Shown here: in pieces, positions 1,996-6,276 of the stretch
Numbering within the stretch: the stretch's first letter is position 1
Layout of the letters: the number at the start of each line of letters is the position of its first letter
NCBI RefSeq assembly: GCF_002868845.1
Contig: NZ_PKUB01000028.1
Coordinates: 1-64,000 of the forward strand
Direction: 5' to 3'
DNA length: 64,000 nt
DNA from: Desulfuromonas sp.
GTDB lineage: Bacteria; Desulfobacterota; Desulfuromonadia; Desulfuromonadales; BM501
Notes under the pieces: generated by a model
What the model saw: the letters and a program-made list of their open reading frames with translations, nothing else
The model's database searches: none
What the model was told of the DNA's origin: nothing
Position numbers and translations under genes: made by a program

Positions 1996-2215
1996 TTAGG
2001 TGCCCCCCCTTTCGACGCCGCCGGAGCGAAGCGGATATTTTGAGGAATTCGAGGGCAAATGTCTGAGCGAAGCGAGTTCTTGCCCGCGCTCAAAAAATCC
2101 GCGCAGCGGAGGGAACCCGCAGGGCAAGTCGTTGGGGCGCCCTTTCTCTGCTTACTCTCTTTGGGCGAGCAAAGAGAGTAAGGCGTCGTCCGGGGACGCA
2201 ACCCCGATATTTTGC
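1996..2215 (-). repeat. structured dispersed repeat, copy A, between nuoL and nuoM
   Basis: About 220 bp matching, in inverted orientation, the element at 6050-6240. Parts on the + strand: outer stem 2031-2044 with 2089-2102 (14 bp, one mismatch), inner stem GGGCAA 2053-2058 with TTGCCC 2080-2085, loop 2059-2079, then a separate 13-bp perfect hairpin 2151-2163 / 2170-2182 with a 6-nt loop. Sequence shared with copy B on the reverse strand includes GGGTTCCCT, CGCTGCGC, AACTCGC, GACAT and CTCCGGCGGCGTC. The short reading frames here look spurious. This element fills the whole nuoL-nuoM gap. Confidence 0.85.
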
Positions 2216-2235
2216 GATCGAACACAAAGGCCAAC

Positions 2236-3738
2236 ATGCACAACCTGACCCACATCCCCTGGCTTACCCTCCTCCTCGCCATCCCCATGGCCGGAGCCCT
2301 CCTTTGCCTGGTCCTGGCCCGGCGCCCGGCGGCCTGCCGCTGGATCGCCCTGGCCGCCACGGTCGCGGTCTTCGCCGTGGCCGCGGGCCTCTTCATCCAG
2401 GGCAACGCCGGCATGGGCTGGCTGTGGTGGGAGGACGCCCCCTGGATCGGCCGCTGGGGCATCCGCTACACCGTCGGCATGGACGGCCTCTCCCTCCTCC
2501 TGGTCCTGCTCTCCGCCTGTCTTCTGGTCCTGTCGGTGCTGATCTCCTGGCGGGAGATCGACCGCCACGGCCCCCTCTACTACGCCCTGCTTCTTCTGCT
2601 GGAGACGGGCATCCTGGGGGTCTTCCTCGCCCTCGACCTGGTCCTCTTCTATCTCTTCTGGGAGGTCATGCTCATCCCGATGTTCCTTCTCATCGGGATC
2701 TGGGGCCACGAACGACGGCTCTACGCGGCGGTGAAGTTCTTCCTCTTCACACTCGCCGGCAGCCTCCTGATGCTCCTGGCGATCCTCGGCCTCTACGTCC
2801 TGCACGGCCGCCAGACCGGGGACTGGACCTTCGCCCTGGCCGCCCTTCAGGAGACGGCCGTCCCCGCCGGGTTGGCCCCCTGGATGTTCGGCGCCTTCCT
2901 GCTGGCCTTCGCCGTCAAGGTCCCCCTCGTCCCGGTCCACACCTGGCTGCCCGACGCCCACACCGAAGCCCCCACCGCCGGATCGGTGATTCTGGCAGGC
3001 CTGCTCCTGAAGACCGGCGTCTACGGCCTGCTGCGCTTCGGATTTCCCCTTTTTCCGGAGGTCGCCCTGACCTCCCTCCCCCTGCTGGCCCTGCTCGCCC
3101 TGATCGGCATTTTCTACGCCGCCTGGATCGCCTACCTGCAGGTGGACGCCAAGCGCCTGGTCGCCTACTCTTCTGTCGCCCACCTCGGGTTCGTGATCCT
3201 GGGGATCGCCGCATGGAACGTCACCGCCCTTGAGGGAAGCATTCTGCAGATGGTCAACCACGGCATCACCACCGGGGCCCTTTTCGCCCTGGTGGGGATG
3301 ATCGACGCCCGGGCGGGGACCCGCCGCCTCGACGGCCTTGGCGGGCTGTGGGCCAGGATTCCCGTCCTCTCCGCCTTCTTCCTCTTTTTCTGCCTCGCCT
3401 CGCTGGGGCTGCCGGGTCTGAACAACTTCGCCGGCGAGATCCTCATCCTGGTCGGCGCCTTCCAGGCCCGGCCCATCTGGGGAGCCCTCGGCATGGCCGG
3501 GGTGGTCTTCGCTGCAGCCTACACCCTGCGCCTGGCCCAGGGCGTCATCTGGGGGGAACCGCGGGACAAGGAACCCTGGCCGGACATGACCGTGCGCGAA
3601 GGGCTGGTGCTGGTGCCCCTGGCGGTGATGGTCCTGTGGCTGGGGCTCTACCCCGCCCCCTTCCTGGAGCCGCTGCGCGAACCGGTGCAACTCCTTCTGG
3701 ACTCCCTCGCATCGGCACCGAAAGGAGGGTTGCCGTGA
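2236..3738 (+). CDS. nuoM: NADH-quinone oxidoreductase subunit M
   Basis: 500 aa, normal for NuoM, the second antiporter-like proton-pumping subunit. FYLFWEVMLIPMFLLIGIWG carries the TM5 Glu (residue 143), followed by KVPLVPVHTWLPDAHTEAP and RLVAYSSVAHLGFVILGI. I chose the ATG at 2236, preceded by an AAGG. A TTG at 2212 in the same frame would add eight non-homologous residues that lie in the repeat edge. The stop overlaps the nuoN GTG by 4 bp (GTGA). Because the preceding gap contains two strong hairpins, translation here must be initiated independently of nuoL. Confidence 0.94.
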   Translation: MHNLTHIPWLTLLLAIPMAGALLCLVLARRPAACRWIALAATVAVFAVAAGLFIQGNAGMGWLWWEDAPWIGRWGIRYTVGMDGLSLLLVLLSACLLVLSVLISWREIDRHGPLYYALLLLLETGILGVFLALDLVLFYLFWEVMLIPMFLLIGIWGHERRLYAAVKFFLFTLAGSLLMLLAILGLYVLHGRQTGDWTFALAALQETAVPAGLAPWMFGAFLLAFAVKVPLVPVHTWLPDAHTEAPTAGSVILAGLLLKTGVYGLLRFGFPLFPEVALTSLPLLALLALIGIFYAAWIAYLQVDAKRLVAYSSVAHLGFVILGIAAWNVTALEGSILQMVNHGITTGALFALVGMIDARAGTRRLDGLGGLWARIPVLSAFFLFFCLASLGLPGLNNFAGEILILVGAFQARPIWGALGMAGVVFAAAYTLRLAQGVIWGEPRDKEPWPDMTVREGLVLVPLAVMVLWLGLYPAPFLEPLREPVQLLLDSLASAPKGGLP

Positions 3739-5147
3739 GCCTTCTCGAGCTGACCTCCCTGCTGCCGGTGCTGATCCTGGCCCTCGGCTCCACCGCCCTG
3801 CTGATGGCGGGAGCCTGGTGGCCCGCCTCCCGCAGTCTCCTTCTCACCGGGGTCGGCATCGCCCTGGCCGCCGCCCTCCATGCCGCCCTGGTTACGCCCC
3901 CGGCGGCGGAGGTGGCGGGAATGTTCGGAACGGGACCCTATGCCCGCTTCTTCACCGTCCTGTGGTCTCTTGCGGGCGCACTCACCCTCCTGCTGTCGCT
4001 GCGCTACGGACCCGAGCGGAATTTCCCCGCGGGCGAGTACGCCTCCCTGATCCTGTTCGCCTCCGCCGGCATGGCCCTTCTCTCCTCGGCGACCTCCCTG
4101 GTCGGCGTCTTCCTCGGCCTGGAGACCTTCACCCTGGTCTTCTACATCCTCATCGCCTTCCACAAGGAAAGCCCCGACGGGGCCGAGGCCGGCCTCAAGT
4201 ACCTGGTGATGGGAGCGGTGGCCACCGGTTTTCTCGCCTTCGGCATCGCTCTGATCTACGCGGTCTCCGGTACCTTTCACATCCCCGAAGCGATGGCGGG
4301 CCTCGTCGCCGACGGCCGCCTTCGCCCTCTCGGCCTGGCCGGCTGGGCGATGCTGGTCGTCGCCCTCGGCTTCAAGATCTCCCTCGTCCCCTTCCATCTC
4401 TGGACCCCCGACGTCTATCAGGGGGCCCCCGCGCCGGTGACGGGCATTCTCGCCGCCGGCTCCAAGGGAGCGACGGTCGCCGCCCTGGTCCCCCTCCTCT
4501 CCGGCCCCCTGACGGGAGGAGACCTGACGCCCCTGCTCTGGCTCCTGTCGGCCCTGACCATGCTCGTCGGCACCCTCTGCGCCCTGCGCCAGGAGAACCT
4601 CAAGCGGATGCTCGGCTACTCCTCGGTCGTGCACATGGGCTACGTACTGATCGGCCTGATCGCCAGCGGGGAGATCGGAGAAAGCGCGGTCCTCTTCTAC
4701 CTGGTATCCTACACCGCCGCCACCCTCGGCGCCTTCGGTACAATCGCCTCTCTCTCGGGCCCCGAGGGCGAGCCCCAGGACCTGTCGGCCCTGCGCGGCC
4801 TCGGCTACCGCCATCCCTATCGCGCCGGCGCCCTGGCGGTCTTTCTCTTCTCCCTGGCCGGCATCCCTCCCGCCGCGGGATTCATCGGCAAGTTCGGCAT
4901 CTTCTACGCGGCGGTCAAAACCGGCTACGTCGGCCTGGCGATCCTCGGGGCCCTCGCCTCCCTCGTCTCCGTCGCCTACTACCTGCGGCCGGTAATGGCC
5001 ATGTTCATGACCGAAGAGAAAGGCCCGGAGGTGCCCGCCGGAAACTCGGCAGAGCATACCGCCCTGGCCGCCTGCCTGGCGGCCACCCTGCTTCTGGGAA
5101 TCCTTCCCGGGCCGCTGCTCGACCTGATCGCCCTTGTCCTTCCCTGA
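3735..5147 (+). CDS. nuoN: NADH-quinone oxidoreductase subunit N
   Basis: 470 aa, the third antiporter-like membrane subunit of complex I. Typical NuoN blocks: FLGLETFTLVFYILIAFHK, SLVPFHLWTPDVYQGAPAPV, LKRMLGYSSVVHMGYVLIGL and SLAGIPPAAGFIGKFGIF. The GTG start at 3735 is supported by a strong ribosome site (AAAGGAGGG, 5 nt upstream) and the 4-bp overlap with nuoM. A much longer open frame upstream is antisense-free read-through inside nuoM and is not the protein. This is the last nuo gene of the cluster. The AIM24 gene follows after 51 bp with its own ribosome site. Confidence 0.94.
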   Translation: MSLLELTSLLPVLILALGSTALLMAGAWWPASRSLLLTGVGIALAAALHAALVTPPAAEVAGMFGTGPYARFFTVLWSLAGALTLLLSLRYGPERNFPAGEYASLILFASAGMALLSSATSLVGVFLGLETFTLVFYILIAFHKESPDGAEAGLKYLVMGAVATGFLAFGIALIYAVSGTFHIPEAMAGLVADGRLRPLGLAGWAMLVVALGFKISLVPFHLWTPDVYQGAPAPVTGILAAGSKGATVAALVPLLSGPLTGGDLTPLLWLLSALTMLVGTLCALRQENLKRMLGYSSVVHMGYVLIGLIASGEIGESAVLFYLVSYTAATLGAFGTIASLSGPEGEPQDLSALRGLGYRHPYRAGALAVFLFSLAGIPPAAGFIGKFGIFYAAVKTGYVGLAILGALASLVSVAYYLRPVMAMFMTEEKGPEVPAGNSAEHTALAACLAATLLLGILPGPLLDLIALVLP

Positions 5148-5198
5148 TCAGAACCAGGAAGGAAGCCACCCAGACAATCACGACAAGGAGGACGCAGC

Positions 5199-5987
5199 AT
5201 GAAATGCCATGAAGTCGATTACGAGATCGTCGGAGACGACATGCAGATGGTTACGGTCGAGCTCGACCCGGGCGAGACGGTCATCGCCGAGGCCGGGGCG
5301 ATGAACTACATGGAGGAGGGGATCGCCTTCGAGGCGAAGATGGGGGACGGCTCACAGCCCGACCAAGGGCTCATGGGGAAACTCCTGGGCGCCGGCAAGC
5401 GGGCCCTGACCGGCGAGTCGCTTTTCATGACCCACTTCAGCAACGGCGGAGTCGGCAAGCGCCACGTCGCCTTCGCCGCCCCCTACCCGGGGCGGATCAT
5501 CCCGATGAACCTGGCCCGGCAGGGAGGCGAGATCCTCTGCCAGAAGGATTCTTTCCTCTGCGCCGCCCTCGGCACCGAGGTCGACATCGCCTTCCAGCGC
5601 CGGCTCGGCGCCGGATTCTTCGGCGGAGAGGGCTTCATCCTGCAGCGTCTGCGCGGCGACGGCATGGTCTTCATTCACGCCTGCGGCACCATCGTCGAGC
5701 GGGAGCTGAAGGGCGAGACCCTGCGGGTCGACACCGGCTGCCTCGTAGCCTTCGAGCCGACGGTGGAGTACGACATCGAACGGGCCGGCAACCTCAAAAG
5801 CATGTTCTTCGGCGGCGAGGGTCTCTTTCTCGCCACCCTGCGCGGCCACGGCCGTGTCTGGATGCAGAGCCTCCCCTTCAGCCGACTGGCCGACCGGATC
5901 ATCTCCCACGCCCCGAAGGCCGGGGGGAGCGCCAAGGGCGAAGGCTCGGTTCTCGGCGGCCTCGGGCGCATGCTCGACGGGGACTGA
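5199..5987 (+). CDS. AIM24 / TIGR00266 family protein
   Basis: 262 aa. Matches the AIM24 (TIGR00266) family, a beta-rich double-psi-barrel-like fold of unclear function, by segments such as [38 protein letters not shown] and the C-terminal [20 protein letters not shown]. No signal peptide or membrane segment, so probably cytoplasmic. Start fixed by AAGGAGG 7-8 nt before the ATG. It lies 51 bp after nuoN on the same strand and may be co-transcribed. I see nothing linking it functionally to complex I. Followed by repeat copy B and a strong bidirectional terminator. Confidence 0.85.
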
Positions 5988-6049
5988 GGGGAAAGGAGGG
6001 GCCTCCCCAGGTCCCGTTTACCGCCGAGAAACGAAAAAGCCGGCGGGTT

Positions 6050-6240
6050 TCGCCCCGCCAGGCGAGTCACCTTTCTTGATCGGCCAAGAAAGGTAACCCA
6101 AAGAAGGCCGCCCCGCGCCTTGCCCTTAGGGTTCCCTGCGCTGCGCAGATGAATTCGGCACGGACGGAAACTCGCCTTCGGCTTCGGACATCCGTCCGCG
6201 TCTCTCCGAATTCATCCACTCCGCTCCGGCGGCGTCACAG
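6050..6240 (+). repeat. structured dispersed repeat, copy B
   Basis: Same family as 1996-2215, opposite orientation. Hairpin one: ACCTTTCTTG 6069-6078 with CAAGAAAGGT 6085-6094, 6-nt loop. Then TTGCCC..GGGTTCCCT and CGCTGCGC, an outer stem GATGAATTCGG 6148-6158 with CCGAATTCATC 6206-6216, an inner stem GGACGGA 6162-6168 with TCCGTCC 6191-6197, loop 6169-6190, and CTCCGGCGGCGTC at the end. Stem sequences differ from copy A while pairing is kept; the loop and flanks are conserved. The 379-bp gap 5988-6366 holds this element and the terminator that follows, and no gene. Confidence 0.85.
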
Positions 6241-6276
6241 GGGGAGAGTGCTCCCCGGAAAATCCCTGTTGAACCC

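Follow-up and report, generated by a model that had tools for sequence, protein, structure and literature searches.

Repetitive extragenic palindromes (REPs) are 20–40 nt long and conserved in stem sequence, and in telomerase RNA and the SAM-II riboswitch a pyrimidine loop 1 occupies the major groove of stem 2. Both of these RNAs are cited among the triplex-bearing ones in PMC3711454. The STAXI motif, a repeated pseudoknot element, has been debated as RNA or single-stranded DNA (ssDNA) (Weinberg et al., 2010, PMC2864571). BRE is described as a Betaproteobacterial repeat of about 90 bp, which is arranged in close tandem in Bordetella and reaches 29 copies in a Polaromonas; RNAs of about 80 and 200 nt were detected by northern blotting for one of its loci (Hot et al., 2011, PMC3110155). 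Catalogues of intergenic ‘multicopy nucleotide sequences’ are given for Geobacter bemidjiensis and Pelobacter carbinolicus (PMC2996986, PMC3543383). Here, two structured elements from a 64,000-nt stretch of Desulfuromonas sp. DNA (contig NZ_PKUB01000028.1 of assembly GCF_002868845.1, positions 1 to 64,000; hereafter the window) are compared with these systems and with their relatives in other genomes. We put at about 60% the probability that they belong to a group of dispersed non-coding elements of about 200–310 bp which work as folded single strands, most likely of RNA, and are spread in trans; the findings point to a selfish or regulatory RNA.

Two oppositely oriented elements with stems and a common loop had been noticed in an earlier, sequence-only reading of the window, and they are indeed present at about 2004–2206 (copy 1) and 6042–6246 (copy 2) once the pseudoknot and the outer hairpin, which had gone unseen and make the element larger than described, are counted in. 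Folding z-scores amount to –4.6 for copy 1 and –3.7 for copy 2, and for each of them none of 200 shuffles is equally stable. While stems and loop had been drawn correctly, the 5′ half, with a hairpin and a covarying H-type pseudoknot, had been missed. On the strand first folded, the layout starts with the hairpin HP0 (GCGGGG-loop-CCCCGC), GGCGA, a hairpin of 12–14 bp and a short A/G-rich strand, and continues with GGCG.CCCC, the small hairpin HP2, CTSCGCTSCG, a variable long stem with the loop AACTCGC..GCTCARACA, and CTCCGCTCCGGCGGCGTCACAGGGG. Read on the complement, which turns out to be the functional strand, the order is outer stem P1, long stem with loop, HP2, closing arm of P1, H-type pseudoknot and HP0.

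The source genome (3.70 Mb, 56 contigs) contains 24–26 copies, searches with either copy giving more than twenty relatives at 70–95% identity, and many more occur in other genomes. A covariance model (R1), as suggested along with the sequence-only reading, of the 120-nt core, built on an alignment (A1) of 20 copies from the source genome, gives 26 matches in this genome and is matched in 25 of the 38 genomes of the order at 0–38 copies each (38 in G026 and 25 in G003), whereas it is sparse in the rest of the phylum (under stricter filters, 5 of 148 genomes, one of them the source genome). In A1, 93.8% of the cells are paired (shuffles, 81.0 ± 1.0%) and covariation reaches a score of 0.403 (shuffles, 0.185 ± 0.014), neither value being reached by any of 500 shuffles; when the 3′ partner is slid, the covariation signal collapses. 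The loop AACTCGCTNCGCTCARACA (UGUYUGAGCGNAGCGAGUU on the functional strand) is nearly invariant, and the flanking stems change completely yet pair, so that the whole family, with unit lengths of about 200–310 bp, has free stem sequence with pairing kept. Among 153 elements, the arms of the long stem pair with a mean energy of –40.2 kcal/mol with their own partner and –24.9 kcal/mol with foreign ones, and the own arm beats 95% of the foreign arms in 79% of the elements. Chance pairing and repeat decay were rejected on the basis of the A1 shuffles and these arm energies. Hence, the earlier claims of covarying stems and of something other than a decayed repeat are borne out, also across phyla, and the further copies keep their pairing well above chance level.

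In the 5′ hairpin, the loop has the downstream G-rich segment as its pairing partner, the letters of both changing together (TCGCC/GGCGA, CGGCC/GGCCG, TGCCC/GGGCA, CGTCC/GGACG and others, on the strand first folded). At least 4 bp are formed in 111 of 134 elements, whereas foreign partners reach this in 45% and shuffles in 36%, and at least 5 bp in 88 of the 134, compared with 16% and 9%, respectively. As this pairing exceeds both foreign and shuffled combinations, the element has an H-type pseudoknot.

For assigning the functional strand, isolated mismatches inside stems were counted with equal scores for G.T and A.C. On the strand first folded, the long stem shows 12 G.T but 68 A.C mismatches (p = 1.2e-10) and the pseudoknot arms 5 and 21, respectively; on the complement these A.C mismatches are G.U pairs. 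Moreover, the complement folds more stably in 127 of 151 cores (p = 1e-19). Wobble asymmetry and folding energy thus identify the complement as the functional single strand, that is, the plus strand for copy 1 and the minus strand for copy 2, and in this respect the strand folded in the sequence-only reading was the wrong one. Since a feature acting at the duplex level could not give such strand asymmetry, selection on a single strand is strongly supported, in agreement with what had been proposed from the two copies and with covariation over many copies and phyla. RNA is favoured over ssDNA, with transcription of this strand being presumed.

The short strand between the pseudoknot partners is complementary to the 5′ arm in parallel orientation and thus mirrors the 3′ arm. 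On the functional strand, this mirror segment forms loop 1 of the pseudoknot and follows the purine strand of stem 2 in a Hoogsteen-compatible direction. Across 30 distinct, partly related variants, the third-strand match is 0.787 compared with 0.558 ± 0.026 after permutation, and none of 10,000 permutations lies above 0.662. The third-strand base is U opposite A-U in 134 of 144 cases and C opposite G-C in 19 of 33; opposite U-A inversions it is G (8 of 11), and opposite C-G inversions U (9 of 19) or G (8 of 19). In triplex chemistry, the known exceptions are G at T-A and T at C-G inversions. Judging from this base pattern, loop 1 is probably a pyrimidine third strand in the major groove of stem 2, forming a canonical U•A-U/C•G-C triplex. 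The alternative that the segment duplicates the 3′ arm and serves strand exchange was rejected, as this reading matches asymmetric arms at only 0.557 compared with 0.818 for the mirror or third-strand reading.

Beyond the order, a pattern built on the loop with stems left free matched at least 117 stretches in named genomes. Loop conservation among these matches is by construction, whereas stem pairing constitutes independent evidence because the stems were free in the pattern. Among the matches listed are Variovorax, Polaromonas, Undibacterium, Herbaspirillum, Acidovorax, Luteimonas, Stenotrophomonas, Methylophaga, Alcanivoracaceae, Sedimenticola, Nitrospirales, Nitrospinota, Desulfuromonadales and Desulfobacterales, with the same layout. 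The family hence ranges over Desulfuromonadales, Desulfobacterales, Beta- and Gammaproteobacteria, Nitrospirota and Nitrospinota, corresponding to at least four phyla by GTDB naming. Rfam gave no match in the window, and none for the elements in loci L346, L349, L353 and L065 even at relaxed E-value. Carriage by phages or plasmids was rejected, since no match was obtained in phages or IMG/VR, the loop pattern being absent from 2.9 million viral contigs, and only 2 of 72,556 plasmids were matched with a Variovorax copy as query. A coding function was likewise discarded, as open reading frames (ORFs) reading through the element are without Pfam match.

Occupancy varies at orthologous sites. In the intergenic region beside a dapB-like gene, genome G020 bears two divergent copies, G028 one copy and a remnant, and G011 none. 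At a Variovorax site between convergent genes, a joined-flank search found the flanks contiguous in some genomes and 0.45–0.9 kb apart in others; among the regions read, 10 are empty or nearly so, 8 contain the element and 2 contain other genes. Where filled, a single, double or partly deleted element spans the gap between the two stop codons, and the right-hand copy has stems that are unrelated between species yet paired, so the stems seem to be exchanged whole. At G003:C1:347793-348829 (L065 1294-2330), four similar units of about 309 bp are arrayed in tandem, and each consists of element plus common spacer. Filled and empty orthologous sites together with such arrays indicate mobility or gene conversion. 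Close neighbours within 700 nt (n = 44) mostly face each other (33 cases, divergent on the RNA strand), while 10 point away from each other and 1 is in tandem. Convergent gaps make up 32 of the 88 gene contexts counted.

Besides, further clusters of copies are seen in G003 at 364–369, 389–402 and 3577–3578 kb. The spacer of facing copies often contains a central perfect palindrome (L145, L173, L298, L302; e.g., CGGCTGCAGGCGC-TGCG-GCGCCTGCAGCCG), making the pair one giant inverted repeat. A Variovorax variant (L148, L151, L152, L157, L174, L197, L218) is devoid of pseudoknot and HP0, in place of which the outer stem is about 20 bp longer (GCCCGGYATGCGGTGCGGG / CCCGCACCGCATGCCGGGC). Core or pseudoknot are lost with both ends kept at L133 1675-1560 (source genome, C15) and L135 2360-2260, apparently by modular deletion between short direct repeats. 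At L214, around 2100-2340, in Polaromonas glacialis, an ORF with an IS30-type transposase-like end abuts a copy truncated inside the pseudoknot, which suggests that an insertion sequence entered the element. A further short repeat, approximately CCTTTGCGGCCNTGAGCGAGCGAAGCGARCGGGCGTGAGGC, lies beside many source-genome copies (flanks of L014, L017, L021, L022 and L023; L135 2360-2500 and 4690-4830) and has GAGCGAAGCGA in common with the terminal loop of the element; in Variovorax, its place is occupied by the hairpin GGGCCATCGCTTCGCTCGGCC.

Several other explanations have to be weighed against spreading in trans. A cis-acting mRNA element, serving as stabilizer or terminator in 3′ untranslated regions or between cistrons and held immobile by selection on the neighbouring genes, would fit the short intergenic gaps, often directly after a stop codon, and the functional strand of copy 1 running with its operon. 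However, in tandem-gene contexts the element shows hardly any preferred orientation (26 antisense, 18 sense), a finding that disfavours a simple mRNA element, a consistent T-run after HP0 is missing, neighbours vary by genome with no gene family enriched, and copies are gained and lost at orthologous sites, so that we consider this explanation unlikely. Slightly lower still stands a REP/REPIN-like ssDNA element with one-strand hairpins as substrate of an HUH (Y1) transposase such as RAYT, the mobilization in trans that had been envisaged initially. The frequent inverted pairs recall REPINs and BIMEs, the sites are intergenic with many convergent gaps, the structure is strand-specific, and RAYT-type domains occur in 35 of the 38 genomes. 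Copy number, however, is uncorrelated with the number of RAYTs (rho = 0.04, p = 0.81), elements occur in three genomes devoid of RAYT, six genomes have 8–15 RAYTs but no element, none of 30 RAYT loci bears an element, and only one RAYT-like ORF lies near the 117 cross-phylum loci among the matches listed. With neither correlation nor proximity, RAYT was rejected as required partner. Insertion into ssDNA of the lagging strand was dismissed as well, because fork orientation, for which GC skew served to locate origin and terminus, leans in opposite directions in two complete genomes and hence gives no consistent bias; in addition, the unit has 200–310 nt and a pseudoknot instead of the 20–40 nt of a REP. 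The only RAYT-like gene seen directly after an inverted element pair (L103 4800-5760, G035:C45) looks like an accidental neighbour and was not taken as a link.

Copying of the RNA in trans by a reverse transcriptase, as in a bacterial counterpart of short interspersed elements, would agree with the RNA-strand evidence, with several copies truncated on one side but intact at the other end and with an A-rich stretch after HP0 in Variovorax copies. It is nevertheless very unlikely, as no match to Pfam RVT_1 was obtained in the element-rich genomes G026 (38 copies), G020, G024, G001 and G035, which eliminates this reverse transcriptase as obligatory partner. Moreover, core-less copies with both ends kept fit deletion between repeats, and truncations remove the 3′ module on the RNA strand, whereas it is the 5′ end that is cut short in target-primed reverse transcription. 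Least probable and largely refuted is a double-stranded DNA site, i.e., a cruciform or BIME-like protein-binding palindrome without single-strand function. Long hairpins, inverted pairs and the palindromes between pair members would suit it, but a duplex cannot favour one strand in mismatches and stability as found here, unconserved stems offer no sequence-specific protein site, and an H-type pseudoknot is senseless in a duplex. Non-autonomous elements derived from IS110 bridge RNA or from IS605/TnpB were also discarded, the partner being missing where copies are many (IS110 is absent from G019, G023 and G001, and TnpB is found in 1 of the 38 genomes). As to the integrase-like mobilization proposed as a possibility from the window, neither an integrase nor any other gene travels with the element. 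The flanks of the Desulfuromonadales loci show no recurrent protein family, nor do those of the 117 cross-phylum loci among the matches listed, and apparently recurrent neighbour clusters proved to be read-through of the element itself or housekeeping genes. A gene missing today may still have been active in the past.

For elements spread in trans as folded single strands, the following course is conceivable. The functional strand would be transcribed, the third strand would form, and the fold might serve as recognition tag for trans-acting machinery, of the cell or of a mobile element, which copies or converts the element. In this way, it could spread non-autonomously into intergenic gaps, often between convergent genes, with its inner parts drifting in sequence or having one stem after another replaced; none of RAYT, Pfam RVT_1 reverse transcriptase, IS110 and TnpB is the obligatory machinery in this order. 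The more far-reaching proposal of a new class of RNA-based mobile element, a triple-helix pseudoknot RNA in several phyla which lacks its own transposase or reverse transcriptase of known type and is handled by cellular machinery reading fold rather than sequence, is possible, albeit doubtful. Some observations weigh against the spread of a transcribed, triplex-bearing strand. Covariation of the outer stem P1 is weak when own and foreign partners are compared, the variants behind the third-strand match are few and partly related, and some positions are off the triplex code. Tolerance of G.T could act in ssDNA as well. Target-site duplications are not readable, because the empty-site genomes have diverged, and no trans-acting factor was found among flanking genes, RAYT, RVT_1, IS110 and TnpB. 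Sigma-70-like or promoter-like sites upstream of the RNA 5′ end are not above shuffles, for which reason an own sigma-70 promoter was rejected, and there is neither a consistent terminator nor a consistent T-run after HP0, which weakens the case for independent transcription. The earlier suggestion of a stand-alone structured RNA is favoured by the strand evidence, with a transcript being likely, but not by promoter excess or terminator.

In the window, copy 1 lies between genes whose proteins look like NuoL (61–1926) and NuoM (about 2236–3738), and its functional strand is co-directional with this operon. On the plus strand, the element (2004–2206) comprises a 5′ part made of CCCCTTTCGAC, the first arm of P1, and GCCGCCGGAGCGAAG (2006–2031), the first arm of the variable long stem with stems A and B (2032–2058), the near-invariant terminal loop ATGTCTGAGCGAAGCGAGTTC, complement of GAACTCGCTTCGCTCAGACAT (2059–2079), the second arm of the long stem (2080–2101), HP2 with GGGAACCCGCAGGGCAA (2111–2127) and the second P1 arm GTCGTTGGGG (2128–2137), to which the test with own and foreign partners applies. 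The pseudoknot follows at 2138–2182, with S1 CGCCC (2138–2142), the L1 third strand TTTCTCTG (2143–2150), S2 CTTACTCTCTTTG (2151–2163), the loop GGCGAG as partner of S1 (2164–2169) and S2′ CAAAGAGAGTAAG (2170–2182), and HP0 with CGGGGACGCAACCCCG (2191–2206) closes the element at its 3′ side. Copy 2 (6042–6246, inferred RNA on the minus strand) is located downstream of an ORF at 5199–5987. Its 3′ hairpin HP0 GGCGGGGCGAAACCCGCC, then on that strand GGCTTTTTCG, lies at 6042–6059, and the pseudoknot at 6066–6110 with S2′ (6066–6078), loop (6079–6084), S2 (6085–6097), L1 (6098–6105) and S1 (6106–6110); a C.A mismatch of S2 on the plus strand is a G.U pair on the minus strand. HP2 (6120–6136), one arm of the long stem (6147–6168, AGATGAATTCGGCACGGACGGA on plus), the terminal loop (6169–6190, AACTCGCCTTCGGCTTCGGACA on plus), the other arm (6191–6216) and the 5′ part of the RNA strand, CCCCTGTGACGCCGCCGGAGCGGAGTG (6217–6243), are all likewise assigned to the minus strand.

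A fold conserved in at least four phyla by GTDB naming, with stems replaced whole while pairing is kept, is thus left with no Rfam entry and no known partner. With its freely replaced stems, the family lends itself to testing by covariation for a major-groove triple helix in a natural RNA, and it makes the spread of structure-only repeats directly testable; besides, it would explain the short spurious ORFs that arise in many Proteobacterial genomes from reading through such repeats. Searching the literature for a prior description turned up only BRE and the multicopy-sequence catalogues, so part of the family has probably been seen before, and parts of the element may overlap with these repeats. 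Compared by description only, both BRE and the element are chromosomal, mostly intergenic, multi-copy, variable in copies per locus and not oriented with the fork, and both have hosts in Polaromonas/Rhodoferax/Acidovorax, whereas the element has a unit of 200–310 bp and is rarely in tandem (1 of 44 close pairs and one 309-bp array in G003), and the parts of the BRE source considered describe neither covariation nor a pseudoknot (PMC3110155). The Geobacter and Pelobacter sequences are, like the element, intergenic repeat families in Desulfuromonadales, the main texts of the catalogues being without structure, strand, pseudoknot, triplex or spread beyond the clade (PMC2996986, PMC3543383). STAXI consists of small pseudoknots in tandem near DNA-handling genes, an architecture different from that of the element, which has no Rfam match. 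With telomerase RNA and the SAM-II riboswitch, the element has in common the H-type pseudoknot with a pyrimidine loop 1 along stem 2 as third strand, yet there is no sequence homology, and the triplex is deduced from covariation alone and located in a dispersed repeat. Like REPs, REPINs and BIMEs, finally, the element is dispersed, intergenic, hairpin-forming, often present as inverted pairs and without coding capacity, but it differs from REPs in lacking a RAYT link, in its length of 200–310 nt, in its free stems and in combining a pseudoknot with a third strand.

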